A DNA stretch of 64,000 nt from the NCBI RefSeq assembly GCF_002153745.1, contig NZ_JOPL01000025.1, positions 1 through 64,000 of the forward strand, read 5' to 3'. Within the stretch, counting starts at the first letter, position 1, and the number at the start of each line of letters is the position of its first letter. Positions 35,335 through 60,511 of the stretch are shown one piece after another. The notes under the pieces are model-generated. The model did not search any database. It saw only the letters and a list, made by a program, of their open reading frames with translations, and was not told the origin of the DNA. A program made the translations under genes and the position numbers. The stretch is from Acetobacter sp. DsW_063. GTDB taxonomy: Bacteria; Pseudomonadota; Alphaproteobacteria; Acetobacterales; Acetobacteraceae.

Positions 35335-37476
35335 ATGGTTTCCACACGGTCTGACCAAAACAGCGTGATGTCGCTAACGTTTCTCTTTTCTTGCGCACTT
35401 CTGACGCCCGTCGTGCCCGTCCGCGCGGAGACCCCGGATAGGGATTCAGCTACACAAACTGCGCGGCACGAGAAGATAGTGGTCGTCGGAAGAAATCAAA
35501 AGCTTACTCCTCTCCACAAGACTAAAACGTCGTATGGCGCGTTTGGTGAAAGAAGCGATCTCGATACTCCTTTCTCTCAAGCTCAATTTACAGATCGATA
35601 TATTGCAGAAAAAGTCATTTCGTCGACGCACGAGCTGTTTCAGCAGGACGCTTCGATCATGTCCAACGCCGGAACGTATACAAGCCGCCCGAGTTTGCTT
35701 TCGGTTCGGGGGCTACAACTTGATACGCTCAATAGTTACAAGATAAATGGGCTCGCTCTGGCGGCGTATGGTCTGGAATTACCACTAGAAGATTTTCAAC
35801 AAGTCGACGTCCTGAAAGGACCAGCCGGTTTTATGTACGGTTTTGGTTCACCGGGCGGAATCGTCAATTATGTGACGAAAAAACCAACGGATCAGTTTTA
35901 TGCTGCTTTTGATCAAGGGTATCAGACCAACTCTGTTTTTTCGGAGCACTTGGACGTAGGCGGACGCTTCTTCAGAAACAAGCGTGTCGGATATCGTGTT
36001 AATCTGACGCACGAAGGTGGAGAAACGTTCAATGGTGGGTCAATCGACCGAAACGCTTTCTCCTTGGGGCTTGACGTCCGGATTACCGATAAACTGACCT
36101 GGACGTTCGATGGACTCTACCAGCGGCGCGTCACGACAGGTGGTATTCAGGGTTTGTTGCTCACATCATATACCGGAAGTGGCCTTCCGGGCACGATCAG
36201 CGGTCGACGCAATCTGTCGTCGAATGGGTCGCAATATGCAAGCGAAGGAGGGCTTCTTGTCAGCGGGCTGCACTGGGATATGGCGCCAGGGTGGAAAGCG
36301 TCGCTCGATTACAGCTACTCGTCAACGCGCAGGCGTTACGCCGAAGATACGCTCTTGTTGCTGAATCGTGCAGGAGGGTACTCGGATTACATGTATGACG
36401 TCGGCAATCGATATGGGTTTCATCAGATACAAGGTCTTGGCGAGGGTCATTTCACGACAGGCCCTTTCAAGCATTATCTGGTTTTCGGAGCGACGTGGCA
36501 ATCGGGATGGAGCGATTTCGCAACGCCGAATTTTTATAACAGTATCGGTACAGGGAATCTTTTTTCCAGAAATGCGAATGTCTACCGATCCAGCATTTCT
36601 CCACGATACTATCGCGGCTCGACTGTTGATCAGACCGCGGGTTTCCTGAGCGACACCATAGCTCTGACCCGATGGATGTCAGTGCTGGGCGGAGTTCGTT
36701 ATACGGATTTGAGCCAGACATCGCGCAGCAGTTCAGGCGTCGTGACTGCGAGGTATGGAAAATCGCCTTTCACGCCAACAGTTGCGCTTCTCATAAAGCC
36801 GCGCGCAGACACCACTGTTTATTTTAGTTGGGTGCAGGCGTTGGAGCAAGGAACGACCGTGGGCACGACGTATCGGAATGCGAACGCCGTTTTGCCGCCG
36901 ATCGTAAGCACTCAATATGAGGTAGGTGTTAAAGCTGAACATAAAACCTGGACGGCCAACGCAGCCCTGTTTCGTATAGATAGAGCTAACTCCTATGTGA
37001 ATTCATCAAATTACTACGTGCAGAGCGGCATGGCGCAGTATGACGGAGTGGAACTGGGGGCTTCATTACAGCCTGTGAGTTCCCTGCGCCTGTCGGCCAA
37101 TCTTATGTGGCTGGATGCATCGGTTATCAGCGGTGTTGCGAGCCAGGTGGGCAGGCGGGTGCGGGGCGCATCGCGTTTCACCGCCACCGGGGGCGTGGAC
37201 TGGAGTCCGAAATTTCTAAAAGGCTTCGTGGTGAACGGGCAGGGGCGTTATACGGGGACGACAGCTGTCGGCAACAACAGCGCGTTGACAGTTCCGGCCT
37301 ACGCCTTATTCGATCTGGGCGCTCTATATGGACTGGATGTGGGTCGACATCGTGTCGAACTGCGTACAGAAATACGAAACATCGCAGATAGACGATATTG
37401 GTACTATTATTCGTCTTCGATCATTTTGCCCGGAGAGCCGCGAACTTTCGCAATGAGCCTGCACTTGGGCTATTGA
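35335..37476 (+). CDS. TonB-dependent siderophore receptor
   Basis: A 713-residue outer-membrane receptor for ferric siderophores. The signal peptide ends near VRAE (about 32). The plug domain (about 45-200) has the siderophore-family blocks RPSLLSVRGLQLDTLNSYKING and VDVLKGPAGFMYGFGSPGGIVNYVTKKP. A barrel follows and ends in LHLGY. Codons are more AT-rich than in the neighbouring housekeeping genes. ATG 35335 follows AAGG; ATG 35368 would shorten the signal peptide. A Fur-like box and interlocking hairpins lie just upstream. No siderophore synthesis genes are nearby, so it probably takes up siderophores made by others. Confidence 0.9.
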   Translation: MVSTRSDQNSVMSLTFLFSCALLTPVVPVRAETPDRDSATQTARHEKIVVVGRNQKLTPLHKTKTSYGAFGERSDLDTPFSQAQFTDRYIAEKVISSTHELFQQDASIMSNAGTYTSRPSLLSVRGLQLDTLNSYKINGLALAAYGLELPLEDFQQVDVLKGPAGFMYGFGSPGGIVNYVTKKPTDQFYAAFDQGYQTNSVFSEHLDVGGRFFRNKRVGYRVNLTHEGGETFNGGSIDRNAFSLGLDVRITDKLTWTFDGLYQRRVTTGGIQGLLLTSYTGSGLPGTISGRRNLSSNGSQYASEGGLLVSGLHWDMAPGWKASLDYSYSSTRRRYAEDTLLLLNRAGGYSDYMYDVGNRYGFHQIQGLGEGHFTTGPFKHYLVFGATWQSGWSDFATPNFYNSIGTGNLFSRNANVYRSSISPRYYRGSTVDQTAGFLSDTIALTRWMSVLGGVRYTDLSQTSRSSSGVVTARYGKSPFTPTVALLIKPRADTTVYFSWVQALEQGTTVGTTYRNANAVLPPIVSTQYEVGVKAEHKTWTANAALFRIDRANSYVNSSNYYVQSGMAQYDGVELGASLQPVSSLRLSANLMWLDASVISGVASQVGRRVRGASRFTATGGVDWSPKFLKGFVVNGQGRYTGTTAVGNNSALTVPAYALFDLGALYGLDVGRHRVELRTEIRNIADRRYWYYYSSSIILPGEPRTFAMSLHLGY

Positions 37477-46234: not shown

Positions 46235-47212
46235 ATGAAAGTGCGGTCGAAGACAATTGTGGTGGTGGCGTTGCCGGGGGTCCAGCTTCTGGACGTATGC
46301 GGCCCGCTGGATGTGTTCGCGGAAGCTAATGCTCAGGTCGGGCGTGAGGAATACCGACTTGTCGTCACCGCGATCGAACCGGGTCAGGTCCGCAGTTCGT
46401 CCGGCGTGCGGTTAGTGGCGGACTGTATTATCGGCGACGACGAAGATGAGGCGATCGACACGCTTCTCGTCGCCGGACGCCCAAACGCGGCCGTTTCCCC
46501 GGTGGATGACGCTGTTGTCGCATGGTTACGCAGGCGGGCGCCGACGGCGCGGCGATTTGGGTCGGTGTGCAGCGGAGCATTCTTTCTTGCCGCAGCAGGT
46601 CTGCTGGACGGCAAACGGGTCACGACTCATTGGGCCGTCGCGGAGGAACTGGTGCGACAGTTTCCAGACGTCATGGTGGATGCGGAGGCGATTCACGTCG
46701 CGGACGGGGCCCTTCGGACAGCCGCCGGGGTAACCGCCGGACTGGATCTCGCGTTGTCGCTTGTCGAGGAGGATCTGGGCCACGAGCTAGCGAGGAGGGT
46801 GGCAAGCCAACTCGTGATGTTCTTCAAGCGACCGGGCGGGCAGATGCAGTTCAGCCGCAAGGGCGTCGCCGCGTTGCCCGGTCGCTCGGCGTTGCAAGAA
46901 CTGCAGCGGTGGGTGGCGACCAATCCGGGCTTGAACCACTCAGTCGCGAATCTCGCCAGACGTATGGATCTGAGCACGCGCCATTTCTCGAGGTTGTTTC
47001 GCAACGAGGTGGGAGTGACGCCGGCGTCGTGGGTTGAAGACGCTCGCGTGAATGCCGCCCGGCGACGTCTGGAACTGGGACAGGAGACGCCAAAGCAGGT
47101 CGCGGCGTCCTGCGGTTTTGCCGATGTCGACACATTGCGCCGGGCGTTCGTCAGGCATGTGGGCGTGTCGCCAGCTGAATATAGAAAGAGGTTTTCGAAA
47201 TTTGACGCGTGA
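46235..47212 (+). CDS. GlxA-family transcriptional regulator (DJ-1/PfpI domain plus AraC helix-turn-helix)
   Basis: A 325-residue regulator. The N-terminal DJ-1/PfpI-like domain (about 7-180) starts IVVVALPGVQLLDVCGPLDVF and carries FGSVCSGAFFLAAAGLLDG with the nucleophile-position Cys; it binds small molecules rather than cutting them. The AraC helix-turn-helix pair is at about 225-322 (SVANLARRMDLSTRHFSRLF and AASCGFADVDTLRRAFVRHVGVSPAEYRKRF). Members control amidase, arginine or quaternary-amine genes. Its likely target here is the divergent HD-domain gene. Confidence 0.88.
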   Translation: MKVRSKTIVVVALPGVQLLDVCGPLDVFAEANAQVGREEYRLVVTAIEPGQVRSSSGVRLVADCIIGDDEDEAIDTLLVAGRPNAAVSPVDDAVVAWLRRRAPTARRFGSVCSGAFFLAAAGLLDGKRVTTHWAVAEELVRQFPDVMVDAEAIHVADGALRTAAGVTAGLDLALSLVEEDLGHELARRVASQLVMFFKRPGGQMQFSRKGVAALPGRSALQELQRWVATNPGLNHSVANLARRMDLSTRHFSRLFRNEVGVTPASWVEDARVNAARRRLELGQETPKQVAASCGFADVDTLRRAFVRHVGVSPAEYRKRFSKFDA

Positions 47213-49084: not shown

Positions 49085-50302
49085 TCATGTAAAATTAAAG
49101 TTCGATACTTCATTAAATAATTGAAGATTTGTCATTTTCATAAGGGCGTCAACGGGATTGGGTTGCGATGAAAATTTAACAATGACAACCTCCGACTGGG
49201 GGTCGACGTAGAGCCATTGCCCATGAATGCCCAGCGTAAAGAATGCTTGGTGAGCATTCCCGCTCTGATACCATTGATTGCGATAAGATCCGCCGGGAAG
49301 CCAGTCGGCAAAATTCCCTTCCCTCCAGGCTTGCATGTCTCCCCCTGAAATCGTGTCGGCCACCCATTCTGGCGAAATAACCTGACGACCAAGGGCCTTG
49401 CCTCCACACCGCATGGCTTCTCCGATCCTCGCGAGGTCACGCGGGGTCATGGAAATTCCGCCGCCTGCGCGTGGCGTACCCTCTGTATCCACGGTTATTG
49501 AACCAGATTGGCGGAGACCGAGCGGGCGCCAGAGACGTGTGGCTGCGAAATCCGCCAGGCGCTCTCCGGATGCCCGCTCCACTACCAGCCCAAGGACATC
49601 GGAATTCGGCGAACAATAGTAAAAGGGGCCACCGTGCTCATTGCTTCCTTTCTTTAGCGATGCAAGAAATTCGATCACTGTCTCCTGGGGCGTTCCCTCC
49701 ATCTGTGGATCGAGGAGGCCCGCCCTTCGATAGCGGGCGAAATCGCCAAGAGAATCGCCGTATTCTTCTGTAAAAGCTACGCTCGTGCGCATATCGAGCA
49801 CGTGTTGAATGGAGGCGTTTCCAAAAGCGGAACGCTCCAGCTCCGGCACGTATCTCGCTACCGGTGCGTCGCGTTCGATTAACCCGTCGCCGACCAGAAG
49901 GCCGACCAAAAGACCTGTGATGGATTTACTTGAAGAAAACATAATATGACGGGTCTGAAGATCGAACTGCGGCGCATGAAATTCGGCTATAAAGCGTCCC
50001 GATTTCATGACGACCAAGGCGTCCGTCCAGGTACGGCGCAACACATCGATCAGTGGTTCTGACTCGCCCGCAATTTTAACGTTCTTTTCGATTAACCGAT
50101 GGGGGCCAACTACGGGCTCTTCTGGCTCCACTGAGTATGATCGAATCTCCGCGGTCGGTATAAATTCCGGGACATGGCAAAACGCCCATACATTCCATGG
50201 AGAATTTCTCCAGTTGTGCAAATGGACCTGATTTCTCATGAAACCATAGGCGTTTGCGAACTGATCGCGCTGCGTCATACGAATTGCTCGTTCTGAGGAC
50301 AT
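49085..50302 (-). CDS. NylB-like serine hydrolase (6-aminohexanoate-dimer hydrolase family)
   Basis: A 405-residue hydrolase of the class C beta-lactamase/esterase VIII fold. From memory, its sequence follows nylon-oligomer hydrolase NylB closely: NSPWNVWAFCHVPEFIPTA near the start, TWTDALVVMKSG, SSSK with Ser123 and Lys126, FYYCSPNSD with the Tyr229 general base, and GIHGQWLYVDPQSEVVIVKFSS near the end. No signal peptide is seen, so it should act in the cytoplasm. It starts 16 bases after the ABC ATPase gene, which makes an imported amide or short peptide-like compound the likely substrate. An esterase role remains possible. ATG 50278 is an alternative start. Confidence 0.8.
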   Translation of the reverse strand: MSSERAIRMTQRDQFANAYGFMRNQVHLHNWRNSPWNVWAFCHVPEFIPTAEIRSYSVEPEEPVVGPHRLIEKNVKIAGESEPLIDVLRRTWTDALVVMKSGRFIAEFHAPQFDLQTRHIMFSSSKSITGLLVGLLVGDGLIERDAPVARYVPELERSAFGNASIQHVLDMRTSVAFTEEYGDSLGDFARYRRAGLLDPQMEGTPQETVIEFLASLKKGSNEHGGPFYYCSPNSDVLGLVVERASGERLADFAATRLWRPLGLRQSGSITVDTEGTPRAGGGISMTPRDLARIGEAMRCGGKALGRQVISPEWVADTISGGDMQAWREGNFADWLPGGSYRNQWYQSGNAHQAFFTLGIHGQWLYVDPQSEVVIVKFSSQPNPVDALMKMTNLQLFNEVSNFNFT

Positions 50303-50318
50303 TTATGTGGAGCGCCGG

Positions 50319-51041
50319 TCATTGCACATGCTGCAGGAAATTATGAAATCGCTCGCTAGGCGGCGAGGATAATAAAGCAGTCGGTTCACCGTCATGAATC
50401 ACGCGACCGTTCTCCATGAAAATGAGGCGTGAGCCGACTTGCCGGGCGAAATGCATCTCATGAGTAACAACCATCATGGTCATCCCTTCCGTCGCAAGTG
50501 TTTGCATGACTTTCATGACTTCCTGCCGTAACTCGGGATCCAGGGCTGACGTCGGTTCGTCGAACAGCATCAATTTGGGTTGCACGGCAAGCGCACGGGC
50601 AATTGCAACGCGTTGTTGCTGGCCTCCAGATAATTGAGATGGATAATGATTCTTTCTTTCAAAAAGTCCTACTTTTTCTAGCAACGTTTCGGCGGCTTCC
50701 TGCGCCTCGAATTTCGAGTGCTTATTGACCTGGATCGGCCCAAACATAACATTTTGCAGTGCCGTAAGGTTGGGAAAGAGATTGAACTGCTGAAAGACCA
50801 TGCCCGCCTGACGTCTTATCTGGCGTACGTCAGCGGGCGATCCCAGTACACTAATCCCGTTTACCAACAAATCTCCACCGTTGATTTTTTCTAGAGCATT
50901 GACGCAGCGGAGCATTGTCGACTTCCCGGAACCGGACGGACCGATGATAACGGCGACTTCCCCCGACTTGACCGAGAGTTCGGTTGGTCGCAGCACCACA
51001 TGATCACCAAAGCTTTTCGTGGTTTGACGGAATTCAATCAT
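50319..51041 (-). CDS. polar amino acid ABC transporter, ATP-binding protein
   Basis: A 240-residue ATPase of the GlnQ/HisP group that powers import through the adjacent permease. Walker A is GPSGSGKST (about 35-43), the signature LSGGQQQR, Walker [13 protein letters not shown], and the switch His lies in VVTHEM. Its start is one base after the permease stop, so they are translationally coupled. Substrate specificity comes from the binding protein, not this subunit. Confidence 0.93.
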
Positions 51042-51042
51042 T

Positions 51043-51699
51043 TCAGGGCAACCTCACCCGCCGTTCCAGCAAACGCAATCCTAACGCAAATGCGCTGATG
51101 ACCAAAAAGTAAATCGCCGCGACTTCCGACCAAATTTCTACAGAACGAAAATTTTCGGCCATTACCTCCTGACCGCGACGTGTAAGCTCTCCAACTCCTA
51201 TCACTATAAAAATAGAAGTATCTTTCACAACATTGACGAGTTGATTTCCCATTGCCGGTAAAGAACGTCGAAACGCAAGCGGCGCTATAATATGAGCAAG
51301 AACGGCAGGAAAAGAGAGACCCATCGCCAGGCCGGCTTCCTGTATCCCAATCGGAACACTATTAAGAGCTCCGCGTATAATCTCAGCGTTATAAGCTCCA
51401 GAATTGATTATGATGGTAATGATGGCGGCGTCTATGGAGCTGATACGAATGCCCGCTATCAACGGTAACGCAAAAAATATGAACATGACCTGGACTACGA
51501 TAGGCGTTCCTCTGATGAGCGCGACATAAACATGCGCCAGCGCATTGGAGATTCGTCCTCCATACTCCAGTGCAACACCCGCCACGACGCCAAACACGAT
51601 CCCTCCGGCCAATCCGGAAAGCGCGATCAGAAGCGTCACTTGTAGCCCCTGCATCAAATCTGGAAAGGCAGATATCAGAACCGACCAGTCAAAGTTCAT
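51043..51699 (-). CDS. polar amino acid ABC transporter, permease
   Basis: A 218-residue HisM/GlnP-type permease with about five transmembrane segments. The coupling-loop motif is ALNSVPIGIQEAGLAMGLSFPAV, the usual EAA loop. A single permease gene implies a homodimer. ATG 51699 follows CGGAAAA; a TTG at 51717 would add six residues. It lies between the binding-protein gene (26 bases) and the ATPase gene (one base). Confidence 0.92.
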   Translation of the reverse strand: MNFDWSVLISAFPDLMQGLQVTLLIALSGLAGGIVFGVVAGVALEYGGRISNALAHVYVALIRGTPIVVQVMFIFFALPLIAGIRISSIDAAIITIIINSGAYNAEIIRGALNSVPIGIQEAGLAMGLSFPAVLAHIIAPLAFRRSLPAMGNQLVNVVKDTSIFIVIGVGELTRRGQEVMAENFRSVEIWSEVAAIYFLVISAFALGLRLLERRVRLP

Positions 51700-51725
51700 T
51701 TTACATTTTCCGTACAAAACTCAGC

Positions 51726-52478
51726 TTATTCTTCGGTCTGGCCGAACCATTTCTCGTTTAACGCGGAGAGGCGACCATCTTTTTTCATCAACGTCAGTTG
51801 CGTGTTCGCCTGTGCCACAAGGGGGCTTCCCTTTGGAAAGCCGATACAGACATCGCGTCCCTCGAGGTCGGGCTTGATTATCCGTACTTTGCCTTTCCCT
51901 CCGGTGTGGGCGTAATACATCAATACCGGCGTGTCATACACAACTGCATCCGTGCGCCCGGCCTCAAGGGCCAGTAACGCCTCGGTAACAGAGGGCATTT
52001 CAGCAATCGTCGCATTTTTGATGTTTTCTCTGATGTAGGCGATTCCTATTGTGCCGGTCTCTGCGCCAATTATTTTTCCGGCGAGATCCGATGCCGTATG
52101 GATCGTCGTATTGTCGATGCGCGTCACGGCGATTAAGCCGCTTTTGTAGTAGGGTTCAGAAAAATCAATTACTTTTCGGCGTGCTGGTTTTACGAAAAGT
52201 TGCGAGACGACAACATCGAGGCTTCTCGTCTGCAAAGCTGGAATGAGAACGTCAAACTCCATCGGTTGAATTTTCCAATTCTTTCCGATGCCTGTGGCAA
52301 TTTCGCTCCATACGTCGATGTCGAACCCTGTGTAGGACCCGTTTTTTCTGAAGCAAAACGGGGGACCTCCGGCATGTGCTCCGACGATCAGGGGAGCGTC
52401 ATCAGCCCTTGCACCATGCGACGCCACGATAGCGGGTGCGGCCAGCAGACCGAGTCGCAAAATTGAACGTCGATTCAT
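51726..52478 (-). CDS. amino acid ABC transporter, substrate-binding protein
   Basis: A 250-residue periplasmic binding protein of the family 3 (polar amino acid) type. The signal MNRRSILRLGLLAAPAIVASHGARA contains a twin-Arg and could use either the Tat or the Sec route. GFDIDVWSEIATGIG, VVVSQLFVKPARRKVIDFSEPYY and IGAETGTIGIAYI are family landmarks. The usual ligand-carboxylate Arg region is present (PARRK), so the ligand probably has an alpha-amino acid-like head group. The exact ligand is unknown. Confidence 0.9.
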   Translation of the reverse strand: MNRRSILRLGLLAAPAIVASHGARADDAPLIVGAHAGGPPFCFRKNGSYTGFDIDVWSEIATGIGKNWKIQPMEFDVLIPALQTRSLDVVVSQLFVKPARRKVIDFSEPYYKSGLIAVTRIDNTTIHTASDLAGKIIGAETGTIGIAYIRENIKNATIAEMPSVTEALLALEAGRTDAVVYDTPVLMYYAHTGGKGKVRIIKPDLEGRDVCIGFPKGSPLVAQANTQLTLMKKDGRLSALNEKWFGQTEE

Positions 52479-52571
52479 TTTTCACTCGTCCTGAAAGGTA
52501 AAAATGAATAATTCCTGTAATCCATATTCGTTTGGTGTCAGGATTGCTCGAATACTGACTTACAGAGAATC

Positions 52572-53459
52572 TCAGCGTTCGGCAGATGCTTCCACGTGAC
52601 CTCCCAGCCAGCAGCCGCAAATTTTTTCGTCATCAAGAGTGAAACGAATATCTATTTTGGAGGGCCGGTTCATCGCTCGACCCTGGCGGATTGTGATGAG
52701 ACGATCGGACGCTTCGACCAGTTGATTCTCCAGCAGCCCAAAGGCCAGAGCCGAAGCTGCAATTCCAGTCGCAGCATCTTCAGGATATCCGGAATTTTTC
52801 GGAAATTGTCTGGCGTCGTAAATTTGCCGAGCACGATCATGTGGAGCGTATGGGTATAGCCCCGTCGAATCTATTCTTTCGCACAGACTTTCAATACGCG
52901 TGAAATCGGGTTGCAACGCGTCAAGAATGGCCGTGTTTTTCACGGGAACTAAAGTCTTGACCCGACTGGTTGCTGCGTTCTGAATGGGGAACGGCGCTAG
53001 GTCATTTTTGGAGATCTGGAGAACATCCAGAATCTCCGCTTCGCTCTCGGCTGGGTTCGGCAATACATCAATTTTGCCAGGAGGCTGCGTAATCTCAAAT
53101 TGCGCTTCCGCTCCAACGCCCGCGGCAAGGCGTCCACAAACAATGCCGCTCTTCGTCCATATTTTGGCCTCTTGTCGAGGCAATTTTCCGTTTTTGTGCA
53201 GCAGCCAGAGCGCGCCGACAGTCACATGGCCGCACATAGCCATTTCGTGATTGGGAACGAAATATCGAATTTCAAAGTCACATTGGGAGTCGGGAGGGGG
53301 CGGCAATATGAACCCGCTTTCAAGGCCGAATTCTTTCGTGATGCTCTGCATCTCCACGCCAGACAGGCCGGATGCGTCCATTGCTATGGGCGCGGGGTTG
53401 CCACCGCCTTGGCCATCGGTAAATACGTTGACGATTTTCATAGAAATGCCCGACTTCAT
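52572..53459 (-). CDS. PhzF-family isomerase/epimerase-like protein
   Basis: A protein of about 295 residues with the two-lobed diaminopimelate-epimerase/PhzF fold. The catalytic Glu is in EFGLESGF (about 45). AMCGHVTVGALWLL and the second-lobe loop GYPEDAATGIAASALAFGLL line the active site. PhzF enzymes move protons and double bonds in cyclic or amino-acid-like compounds; most family members outside phenazine pathways are untested. ATG 53459 or 53441 (giving MKIVNVFTDG, the commoner family start) are both possible. Its place next to an amino acid transporter suggests it processes the imported compound. Confidence 0.84.
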   Translation of the reverse strand: MKSGISMKIVNVFTDGQGGGNPAPIAMDASGLSGVEMQSITKEFGLESGFILPPPPDSQCDFEIRYFVPNHEMAMCGHVTVGALWLLHKNGKLPRQEAKIWTKSGIVCGRLAAGVGAEAQFEITQPPGKIDVLPNPAESEAEILDVLQISKNDLAPFPIQNAATSRVKTLVPVKNTAILDALQPDFTRIESLCERIDSTGLYPYAPHDRARQIYDARQFPKNSGYPEDAATGIAASALAFGLLENQLVEASDRLITIRQGRAMNRPSKIDIRFTLDDEKICGCWLGGHVEASAER

Positions 53460-53547
53460 CGTCACGCCCTATCAGGTGGTTCGTATGGGCAGACAATAAA
53501 CGGATCTGGAGTTTCTTTGCTTGTCCCGTCGGGCCGTATCTTATGCC

Positions 53548-54411
53548 CTATCGGGCCTTCGGCGTTCTGATTTCCGATGGAGAGCGGCCAGTGGTCCGGC
53601 GCATGGTCCGGGCCAGGGCGCCGCCGCTTTCAAAACCTACGCGAAGCGCTATCTCGCCGATCGACAGATCCGTGCCGGTTAAAAGTGTTTTAGCTTGCTT
53701 TAATCTTGCTCCTTGCTGATACGCTCCTATTGATACGCCACTTTTTTCTCGAAACAGGCGTGTGAGGTGGCGGCGGGAAATCCCGAAACGTTGCCCCATT
53801 TCATCCAGAGGAAGGCTCCGGTCTGCATGATTTGCGATATATGACTTGAGATCAGCGACCAAAGCCGCCCCGTGATCGTGGCGAGCCGCATCAGGCATCG
53901 CCAGGCCTGTCATGACATCGGATATGCACTGCACCAGAAGCGCGGAGGCGATATCCAGACGAAGTGCTGATCCGCCGTATGTTCCCAGATCCTTGCGCAT
54001 GGCGAGGTCTTGTAGAGCGCGCAGGGCGGCGCTGCGCTGGATGAGAATCGGTTTGTCCGCACGGCGATAAAATTCCTGCAAAGAACCCATACGGGCGTCG
54101 ACCTTGCGTAGCGCGTCTTCAGTAACGTACAGCGCTATATGGTGGTGAGACGCCAGCGCCGCTCGGGTCTGATGGCCGCGTCTGGAGGGGACTACCGCAA
54201 AGCATTCCTGAGACAACCAGGCGCCTTTGGAGCGACCTTCATGCTTCAGCTCAATAGCTCCTTGACTGGGGAGCATGAACATCACGCAATCGTGCCAATG
54301 CCACGGTTTCGCGTAATCGCCCGAACTACTCAATGCTGCGAGTGTTTGATCGGCGGCGATTAAATTTTGTCTGTTCTGAGGACAGCTAACCGCTTCAAAT
54401 GACCGCAGCAT
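53548..54411 (-). CDS. AraC-family transcriptional regulator
   Basis: A 287-residue regulator with an N-terminal cupin-like sensing domain (WHWHDCVMFMLPSQGAIEL, about 37-55) and a C-terminal double helix-turn-helix (about 190-285: LPLDEMGQRFGISRRHLTRLF and IGEIALRVGFESGGALARTM). It heads the strand of the PhzF-ABC transporter-NylB-like genes and is the evident local regulator. Induction by the transported compound is likely but not shown. Confidence 0.9.
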   Translation of the reverse strand: MLRSFEAVSCPQNRQNLIAADQTLAALSSSGDYAKPWHWHDCVMFMLPSQGAIELKHEGRSKGAWLSQECFAVVPSRRGHQTRAALASHHHIALYVTEDALRKVDARMGSLQEFYRRADKPILIQRSAALRALQDLAMRKDLGTYGGSALRLDIASALLVQCISDVMTGLAMPDAARHDHGAALVADLKSYIANHADRSLPLDEMGQRFGISRRHLTRLFREKSGVSIGAYQQGARLKQAKTLLTGTDLSIGEIALRVGFESGGALARTMRRTTGRSPSEIRTPKAR

Positions 54412-59258: not shown

Positions 59259-60511
59259 AGCGTTTCCGTCATGTCGTGGGCCGCGCAGCCCCCGGTGGAG
59301 GCAGGCGCGACAAATCTATTACAAAGCGGCGGCACCCTAGCATATGCGAATCAGGGCGGTAAGGCGTGGCGCGCCCGGAGTTCGTCGCAGCGGTTCCGGG
59401 GCTCTCTCGGCACGGTAGATGGAACGTCCTTGCGCTCTGTCTCAAGCTGCGGGCTGTCTGACCTCCCGCCCTTTTCCTCGAAACGCGTAGATCGAGGCGG
59501 GCCTGTTATTTGCGGCCCGACGGCTCTGAAGTGAAGCGCTTCAATAGATCAGATTTTTTGGTTCACTTTATAAAGGAAGGGCGGGGCTCGAACTGTGCAT
59601 CGTGCGATGGCGGGCCCCGCACGCGGCCATACTGGTGGGATCACCGCCCGCGCGTTCAGCAGGCCCAGTCGCTCGCTGGCGTCTTTGGCGCGATCCGACG
59701 AAATGCCCAAGGTTCGGAAAACTTACGATAATACCAGTTTTCATGGCAAAATTTGGCATCCAGCCTCTTTGGTGGGGGCCACAAAAAGAACGTCGTTTAC
59801 GAAAATGTGTTCGCTCAGCTATCCAGATGTCTGAAATCTGACCATAAAACCTGAATCACCTGCGATGTTTGTATAGTTCTTTTTTCATGATCGACGTGAA
59901 AGATTCTAAAAATCCTCTTTGCCTCGCCAGAGGTGTCGGGATGATCGTTTGATAGTTCTTGTTAACGAGGCTTGAGATAGAATTTTTAAAGTCACACCGT
60001 TAATACTTATTTATATCAGATTAAAAAATGTCAAAATGTGAATGTTTCATGAAATATACAAATAAAATCAACAATATGTAAAAAAATATAAATATAGAAA
60101 TTGAAATTATTATTCTAAATTTGACGTTGTATTTTTCATAAAAACGGAATTTTTTTAGAAAAAAAGCAATAAATATGTTTATAATAACAACTGAAATAAA
60201 AACAAATAATTCAATATTTCTGATCATTATTAACATTATCCGGTTCGTTAATGATAGGATTCATCAGAAAATACGATTAATTCAATAATAAATATTGTAT
60301 TTATTGTCATTTTATTAATATCTATATTGTTATGGGCCGTCTCCTCGTCATTTTTCCTTTCCAAACGACGGTTCTGACCAATTTCAGGACCCGATGCTGC
60401 AACCCCGGTCATAATAACGAGGTAAAAGCAGGCTACCTGCGAATTCGGCGGATGTCTCCAGCAAGACATGGAAAGCGCCCGATTCAACCTAACGCGGGCA
60501 ACGTGTCTCGC
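59259..60511. other. 1.25 kb gap with GC-rich hairpin and AT-rich island
   Basis: The left part (59259-59600) is GC-rich and should hold the gyrA promoter. It includes a TGAAGCGCTTCA palindrome (59532-59543) and a nested hairpin with arms GCGGGGC (59581-59587) and GCCCCGC (59614-59620) around CATC-GTGC-GATG. Composition then falls, and 59990-60340 is extremely AT-rich and unlike anything else in the window. No tRNA or known RNA gene was recognised. One hydrophobic frame in the island is listed separately. Confidence 0.5.
60021..60236 (-). CDS. possible small two-helix membrane peptide in AT-rich island
   Basis: A 71-codon frame encoding a hydrophobic stretch (about 9-27), a basic loop (KKFRFYEKYNVKFR) and a second hydrophobic stretch (about 43-62), ending KHSHFDIF. 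The helix-loop-helix pattern is orderly for a chance frame, but AT-rich DNA read in this direction favours Phe, Ile and Leu. The ribosome-binding site is weak. It may equally be non-coding. Confidence 0.25.
   Translation of the reverse strand: MLIMIRNIELFVFISVVIINIFIAFFLKKFRFYEKYNVKFRIIISISIFIFFYILLILFVYFMKHSHFDIF

Follow-up and report, generated by a model that had tools for sequence, protein, structure and literature searches.

The window analysed here comprises 64,000 nucleotides (nt) of the genome of Acetobacter sp. DsW_063 (assembly GCF_002153745.1, 3.03 Mb in 176 contigs, 69% complete; contig NZ_JOPL01000025.1). Positions 49085-54411 carry, on the minus strand, six open reading frames (ORFs) in the order AraC, PhzF, binding protein, permease, ATPase and NylB-like hydrolase, which a first-pass annotation had described as a candidate new amide or peptide utilisation system. 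The ORFs lie where that annotation placed them, and the Pfam assignment agrees with the named family for all six. The first gene (53548..54411, 287 amino acids (aa), PF12833/PF00165) encodes an AraC-family regulator, the probable sensor/activator of the block. It is followed by a PhzF-family isomerase with an EDAATGIAA motif (52572..53465, 297 aa), assigned by PF02567 (E 1.1e-42) and TIGR00654 (149.9 versus a cut-off of 76.2). An ATP-binding cassette (ABC) importer is encoded by the next three genes, a GlnH-like family 3 solute-binding protein with a remodelled pocket (51726..52478, 250 aa, PF00497), a GlnP-like permease (51043..51702, 219 aa from the ATG, with a possible TTG start at 51717) and a GlnQ-like ATPase (50319..51041, 240 aa). 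The block ends with a NylB-like serine hydrolase (49085..50302, 405 aa as called, PF00144), for which an alternative start at 50278 matches the orthologue from A. nitrogenifigens. Intergenic gaps are 82 nt between AraC and PhzF and 93 nt between PhzF and the binding protein, after which they shorten, as had been noted, to 23 nt (from the permease ATG), 1 nt and, between ATPase and hydrolase, 16 nt (40 nt if the hydrolase starts at 50278).

GC content and GC content at third codon positions (GC3) both lie at 0.49-0.57 in the six block genes, compared with a GC of 0.61-0.66 and a GC3 of 0.78-0.88 for the nearby ppi, coaD and gyrA genes; the small neighbour orf111 is likewise AT-rich (GC 0.494). 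No RNA element was matched by Rfam at the gathering threshold between 48600 and 55400. Promoter-like sites occur at chance level (5 versus a mean of 5.8), and terminator-like sites slightly above it (11 versus a mean of 7.5, standard deviation 2.8).

The same six genes, in identical order, occupy the identical site in A. sacchari TBRC 11175 (L023) and A. nitrogenifigens DSM 23921 (L024), between gyrA-coaD-ppi-orf111 and a DEAD-box helicase. Identity to the proteins of these two relatives is 87-99% for the module, 95-99% for flanking proteins and 91-95% for orf111. The ratio of nonsynonymous to synonymous substitution (dN/dS) across the six genes is 0.05-0.19 against A. nitrogenifigens and 0.03-0.27 against A. 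sacchari, and on the basis of these low values the six genes look functional. Elsewhere in the genus the block is rare. A close copy of the hydrolase was found in two of 37 same-genus genomes (DsW_063 itself, counted among the 37, and G011), and in 9/9 other Acetobacter stretches (10-16 kb each, L144 finishing at a contig end) none of the six genes is matched in the gyrA-coaD-ppi surroundings. When 299 genomes of the family were searched for the binding protein at E<=1e-40, it was detected in DsW_063 alone; G011, a carrier, was evidently not in that sample. Transfer had previously been suggested from the AT-rich codon use relative to flanking core genes, and the patchy Acetobacter distribution is fitting for a horizontally transferred block. 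The hydrolase tree places the Acetobacter proteins as the sister group of six proteins from loci that include a RidA-family gene (support 100/96). Module GC was also determined for three other hosts and is approximately 0.63; base composition thus gives no pointer to such hosts as direct donors.

Search for the same gene order in other genomes had been proposed by the first-pass annotation, with a lack of co-occurrence as its refutation; this refutation fails, as AraC-PhzF-NylB loci were found 20 times. These comprise three in Acetobacter, one on a Paraburkholderia plasmid, five in the family sample f88 and eleven in the family sample f31. We take f88 to be Burkholderiaceae, since its member G985 is 98-100% identical to Caballeronia sp. 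SBC2 over neighbouring genes. An AraC counterpart lies directly upstream of PhzF on the same strand in 20/20 loci, importer genes are present in ten and a RidA gene is part of the operon in six. The constant core is thus AraC-PhzF-hydrolase, and the importer is optional. The plasmid of Paraburkholderia sp. PGU19 (L026) contains all six genes in the window order at 57-74% identity, with a RidA-family gene (PF01042) inserted between PhzF and the binding protein. The five f88 loci (L104-L108) all possess both RidA and the importer. Among the f31 loci, L117 has the importer and no RidA, and the other ten (L063, L110-L116, L122 and L123) are without importer. No binding protein of the block type was found at E<=1e-35 in those ten genomes (other transporter types were not searched), so the module does not depend on having the importer.

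The f88 and f31 loci were collected through PhzF searches at E<=1e-50, which gave matches in 60 of 329 f88 genomes and 15 of 296 f31 genomes. All 75 PhzF neighbourhoods were scanned with reference proteins (L130, L134 and L137 being cut short by the limits of the region taken or by a contig end). A NylB-like gene of >45% identity lies downstream of PhzF in 16 of the 75 (5 f88, 11 f31), RidA is adjacent in 29 and a member of the ornithine-cyclodeaminase/mu-crystallin (OCD) family in six. Where PhzF is at least 58% identical to that of the window, NylB is adjacent in 14/15 loci. Comparison of 5-kb flanks (Acetobacter loci, L122 and L123 omitted) produced one weak match altogether among the six RidA-type loci, so that the unit persists in unrelated surroundings. 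The AraC and PhzF proteins of L122 and L123 branch deeply and separately from those of the 18 remaining loci (the program warns of long branches in the PhzF tree), and their hydrolases group within the f31 module clade, a pattern suggestive of NylB having been paired with a second AraC-PhzF lineage. NylB-like proteins as such are widespread, with matches at E<=1e-50 in 46 of 398 phylum genomes sampled without family guidance, and PhzF at E<=1e-35 was found in four of the 398; the broad hydrolase family is common and the PhzF subfamily rare. In searches made independently of PhzF, the NylB matches listed at >55% identity (DsW_063, G011, PGU19 and G640) lie beside a PhzF in 4/4 cases.

These data bear on the possibility that the hydrolase is a plain esterase, its position reflecting one ancestral assembly copied around with no pathway shared with PhzF. 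The fold is catalytically promiscuous, NylB is absent at 59/75 PhzF loci, and the 20 loci may stem from few founding events. However, in unrelated surroundings the linkage survives at ~60% identity, it is seen with both of the divergent AraC-PhzF lineages, and it recurs in all four listed close NylB matches. We therefore regard this explanation as very unlikely. Recurrence of the gene order in other genomes, combined with the dN/dS of 0.05-0.19, argues that the block is not a chance arrangement. We are highly confident that it is a real, selected and co-inherited module of catabolic type, and it is probably mobile.

The solved structure closest to the window hydrolase is that of the 6-aminohexanoate-dimer hydrolase NylB (phmmer E 4.8e-74; PDB 3vwl, 1wyb). 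Ser123, Lys126 and Tyr229, the residues singled out earlier, align with the catalytic Ser112, Lys115 and Tyr215 of this enzyme, and Y181 with Tyr170; equivalents of all four are kept in 20/20 module hydrolases. The NylB-type designation holds for the catalytic residues only. Asp181 and Asn266, described as important for nylon-dimer activity (PMC7019077, consulted in part), are replaced by Arg and Gly in 20/20 (R192 and G280 in the window protein), and the nylon-hydrolase label was lowered on this basis. Arg at the Asp181 position was also found in 21 of 29 relatives from outside the module, the other eight having Asp; it appears to mark a wider branch and is not special to the module. Such an Arg would suit a negatively charged substrate. 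No hydrophobic N-terminus was visible by eye in the 20 orthologues, in agreement with the original description of a hydrolase lacking a signal peptide (no signal-peptide program was run). A comparable arrangement occurs in Rhizobium- and Shinella-type clusters (L032, L064-L072), where a 44-49% identical NylB-like enzyme with Arg at the Asp181 position lies beside an ABC importer. These clusters differ in having a spermidine/putrescine-type importer and an Amidohydro_3 enzyme, with no PhzF match in the stretches read. Eight Rhizobium-type loci of family sample f32 (L064-L071) have a second NylB-like gene; identity to the window gene is 46-49% for the first copy and 32-34% for the second, which keeps Asp181.

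Automatic annotation would suggest that the block is an ordinary operon for glutamine import, to which the other genes are loosely tied. Indeed, permease and ATPase exceed the GlnP and GlnQ equivalog cut-offs (303.5 versus 303 and 404.9 versus 379, respectively), and GlnH is the best-scoring equivalog model for the window binding protein. However, both the window and Paraburkholderia binding proteins fall below the GlnH cut-off of 303, with scores of 234.5 and 250.9. In the E. coli glutamine-binding protein (GlnBP), R75 and D157 bind glutamine by its alpha-carboxyl and alpha-amino groups (PMC3375291, in the part consulted), and the equivalents of both residues are kept in 10/10 binding proteins. 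In contrast, six other pocket positions are changed in 10/10: D10 to N/H, F13 to G/A/S, G68 to Q, T70 to F, K115 to E and H156 to Y. The A67 and G119 positions are also altered. D10 and K115 contribute to substrate recognition in GlnBP (PMC10609312, in the part consulted). With the anchors kept and the remainder of the pocket changed, the ligand is likely of amino-acid type with a different side chain, and a plain glutamine importer is unlikely from the pocket residues. The PhzF-NylB linkage furthermore persists without importer in ten loci. The plain glutamine-importer label was lowered in view of the GlnH score and pocket positions, and we consider it improbable that the block as a whole is such an operon. 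A family 3 amino-acid-type importer likewise forms part of the ectoine uptake-and-degradation locus (ehu/eut). Ectoine uptake was rejected, as scores are below the cut-offs for EhuA (265.7 versus 345.4), EhuB (50.8 versus 190.9), EhuC (139.0 versus 196.95) and EhuD (119.2 versus 205.2); no Eut enzyme was recognised in the block. By eye, the binding proteins of the window (MNRRSILRLG), L026:11405-12169 (MNRRQLLQLG) and L117 (MKRRDFIKLG) have a twin-arginine-like start, a signal unexpected for a GlnH-type protein.

The PhzF residues E49, H80 and D230, which we take to be the active site, are invariant in 79/79 alignment rows and are also present in YddE. The window protein has EDAATGIAA where YddE has EDPVTGNAN, and the only departures from A-A-T-G-I-A-A within this motif are one gapped row and one Val. 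Constant catalytic residues with varied neighbours (hydrolase, RidA or OCD) suggest that one type of PhzF reaction may serve several pathways. Among these neighbours, OCD-family proteins include imine reductases. RidA-family proteins quench or act on reactive enamines and imines (PMC5320631, in the parts covered), and LmbX, a homologue of PhzF, has been described as isomerising a conjugated cyclic imine (PMC4780272, likewise in part). The presence of RidA in 6/20 operons points to an imine/enamine step, and it is on the RidA and OCD neighbours and LmbX chemistry that our enamine/imine proposal is based. Two further neighbourhoods of PhzF were observed. A compact unit in 24 f88 loci (L131-L135, L173, L174, L176-L192) consists of an upstream tripartite-tricarboxylate-type binding protein, PhzF and RidA; these 24 are among the 29 loci with adjacent RidA and represent a related pairing of PhzF and RidA served by another class of transporter. 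Among the 29 loci that have none of NylB, RidA and OCD, five (L161, L163, L164, L167, L175) show an asparaginase-like gene, named by eye, immediately after PhzF; all five belong to one f88 genus-level group, and the gene was not counted as a partner.

Our tentatively favoured reading, held at somewhat less than even confidence, is that the block has spread horizontally and serves the catabolism of a non-standard amino acid, which would reach the cell as an amide or peptide-like conjugate and be degraded by an enamine/imine route. The binding protein, permease and ATPase would import the conjugate through a grip on its alpha-carboxylate and alpha-amino groups, as suggested by the conserved anchors. 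In the cytoplasm, the NylB-like enzyme would open the amide or a related acyl bond by Ser-Lys-Tyr catalysis. PhzF could then, without pyridoxal phosphate (PLP), shift a proton on the released amino acid to give an enamine/2-imino acid, a step consistent with family chemistry and the neighbouring genes. The imine would be converted to a 2-oxo acid and ammonia by RidA where present, or by water; beside related PhzFs, an OCD-family gene may take the place of RidA. AraC would sense the compound and switch the operon, and the importer-less loci presumably rely on another uptake route. Of the original proposal, a probable amide or peptide utilisation module stands, and the transporter as obligatory partner does not, given the 10/20 loci that are devoid of it.

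A more specific version, which we consider rather improbable, is a PLP-independent route in which amide- or peptide-borne beta,gamma-unsaturated (vinylglycine-type) or comparable amino acids are converted to 2-imino and then 2-oxo acids, by NylB-like release, a PhzF 1,3-proton shift and RidA hydrolysis.

A number of observations weigh against the catabolic module reading. RidA is missing from 14/20 module loci, including all three from Acetobacter, and may have a protective role rather than forming a pathway step. The window PhzF has Ile at what we take to be the position of Ser213 in phenazine PhzF, so that its reaction may differ. Inspection of the spacers of the 20 loci by eye revealed no shared AraC operator. 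Neither NylB, RidA nor OCD is found near 29 of the 75 PhzF genes. L109, the sole exception among the 15 loci with PhzF at or above 58% identity, combines a 59% identical PhzF with an absence of both NylB and importer; its genome contains no such binding protein, and its best hydrolase is 37% identical. Among the four phylum genomes with PhzF, NylB lies beside it in two (DsW_063 and G640) and not in G462 and G606 (L118, L134). Plasmids yielded eight PhzF matches of at least 42% identity, and of the six neighbourhoods read, the module is present in PGU19 only; around a 57% identical PhzF on a Pantoea eucalypti plasmid, no further gene of the module lies within 8 kb. Finally, eight of the f31 loci have flanks in common, hence the 20 loci are not independent.

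Detoxification or salvage, as opposed to growth, could also account for the block. The module would in that case disarm an amino-acid antimetabolite of neighbouring microbes or plants, with hydrolase or PhzF destroying the reactive group and RidA clearing toxic imines. The patchy distribution (the two hydrolase carriers in the genus and the nine empty Acetobacter sites) fits this explanation, as do the quenching of reactive enamines/imines by RidA-family proteins (PMC5320631, in the parts covered) and the importer-less operons, as expected of an intracellular detoxifier. Yet the importer in 10/20 loci would carry the toxin inward, and we judge detoxification to be possible though on the unlikely side. 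Less likely still, in our view, is a role for PhzF as D/L epimerase or racemase alongside a NylB-like D-amidase or D-peptidase, allowing D-amino-acid amides or cell-wall-type peptides to be scavenged. This serine hydrolase fold includes D-amidases and D-peptidases, and the PhzF fold is related to diaminopimelate (DAP) epimerase, to which a weak sequence match (E 3.8e-4) was obtained. RidA and OCD neighbours would, however, be unexpected for simple epimerisation.

Several features of the surroundings lie outside the block. A DJ-1/PfpI-AraC fusion regulator (46235-47212) adjoins the DEAD-box helicase; although near the block, it is not part of it. Two further parts of the window are AT-rich: 35335-37476, covering a 713-aa ORF that resembles a TonB-dependent receptor by eye, and 59260-60330 upstream of gyrA, with no ORF of at least 120 aa between ~59535 and 60331. 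No phenazine genes were recognised among the ORFs at 44-60 kb, nine of which were Pfam-scanned (the rest of the genome was not searched). In PGU19, the module is followed by a LysR-like regulator, CsiD (PF08943) and a flavin adenine dinucleotide (FAD)-oxidase-like ORF resembling LhgO by eye (L026:15184-18423); the CsiD/LhgO-like genes probably represent a separate glutarate pathway.

The component families of the module are all known; their combination was not found in the open-licence papers searched, among which we encountered none on an operon joining PhzF with a NylB-like hydrolase, RidA, OCD or vinylglycine. This is in line with the earlier remark that no described pathway joins isomerase, hydrolase and importer. 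MocR-type regulons (PMC5320631) likewise contain PhzF-like and RidA-family proteins outside phenazine synthesis, but with other regulators and DMT-type transporters; the parts of that paper covered describe neither a NylB-like hydrolase in these regulons nor such a PhzF-hydrolase operon.

Outside phenazine synthesis, the function of most PhzF-family members is not known. The operon ties one PhzF subfamily to an amide-type hydrolase, sometimes to an imine deaminase, and to a distinctive binding pocket, which makes function directly testable via the ligand of the binding protein. The labels 'glutamine transporter' and 'nylon oligomer hydrolase' would probably mislead here. If true, the vinylglycine-type route would provide a catabolic or detoxifying role for the YddE-like orphans of the PhzF family, and would pair RidA with an imine source that does not depend on PLP.

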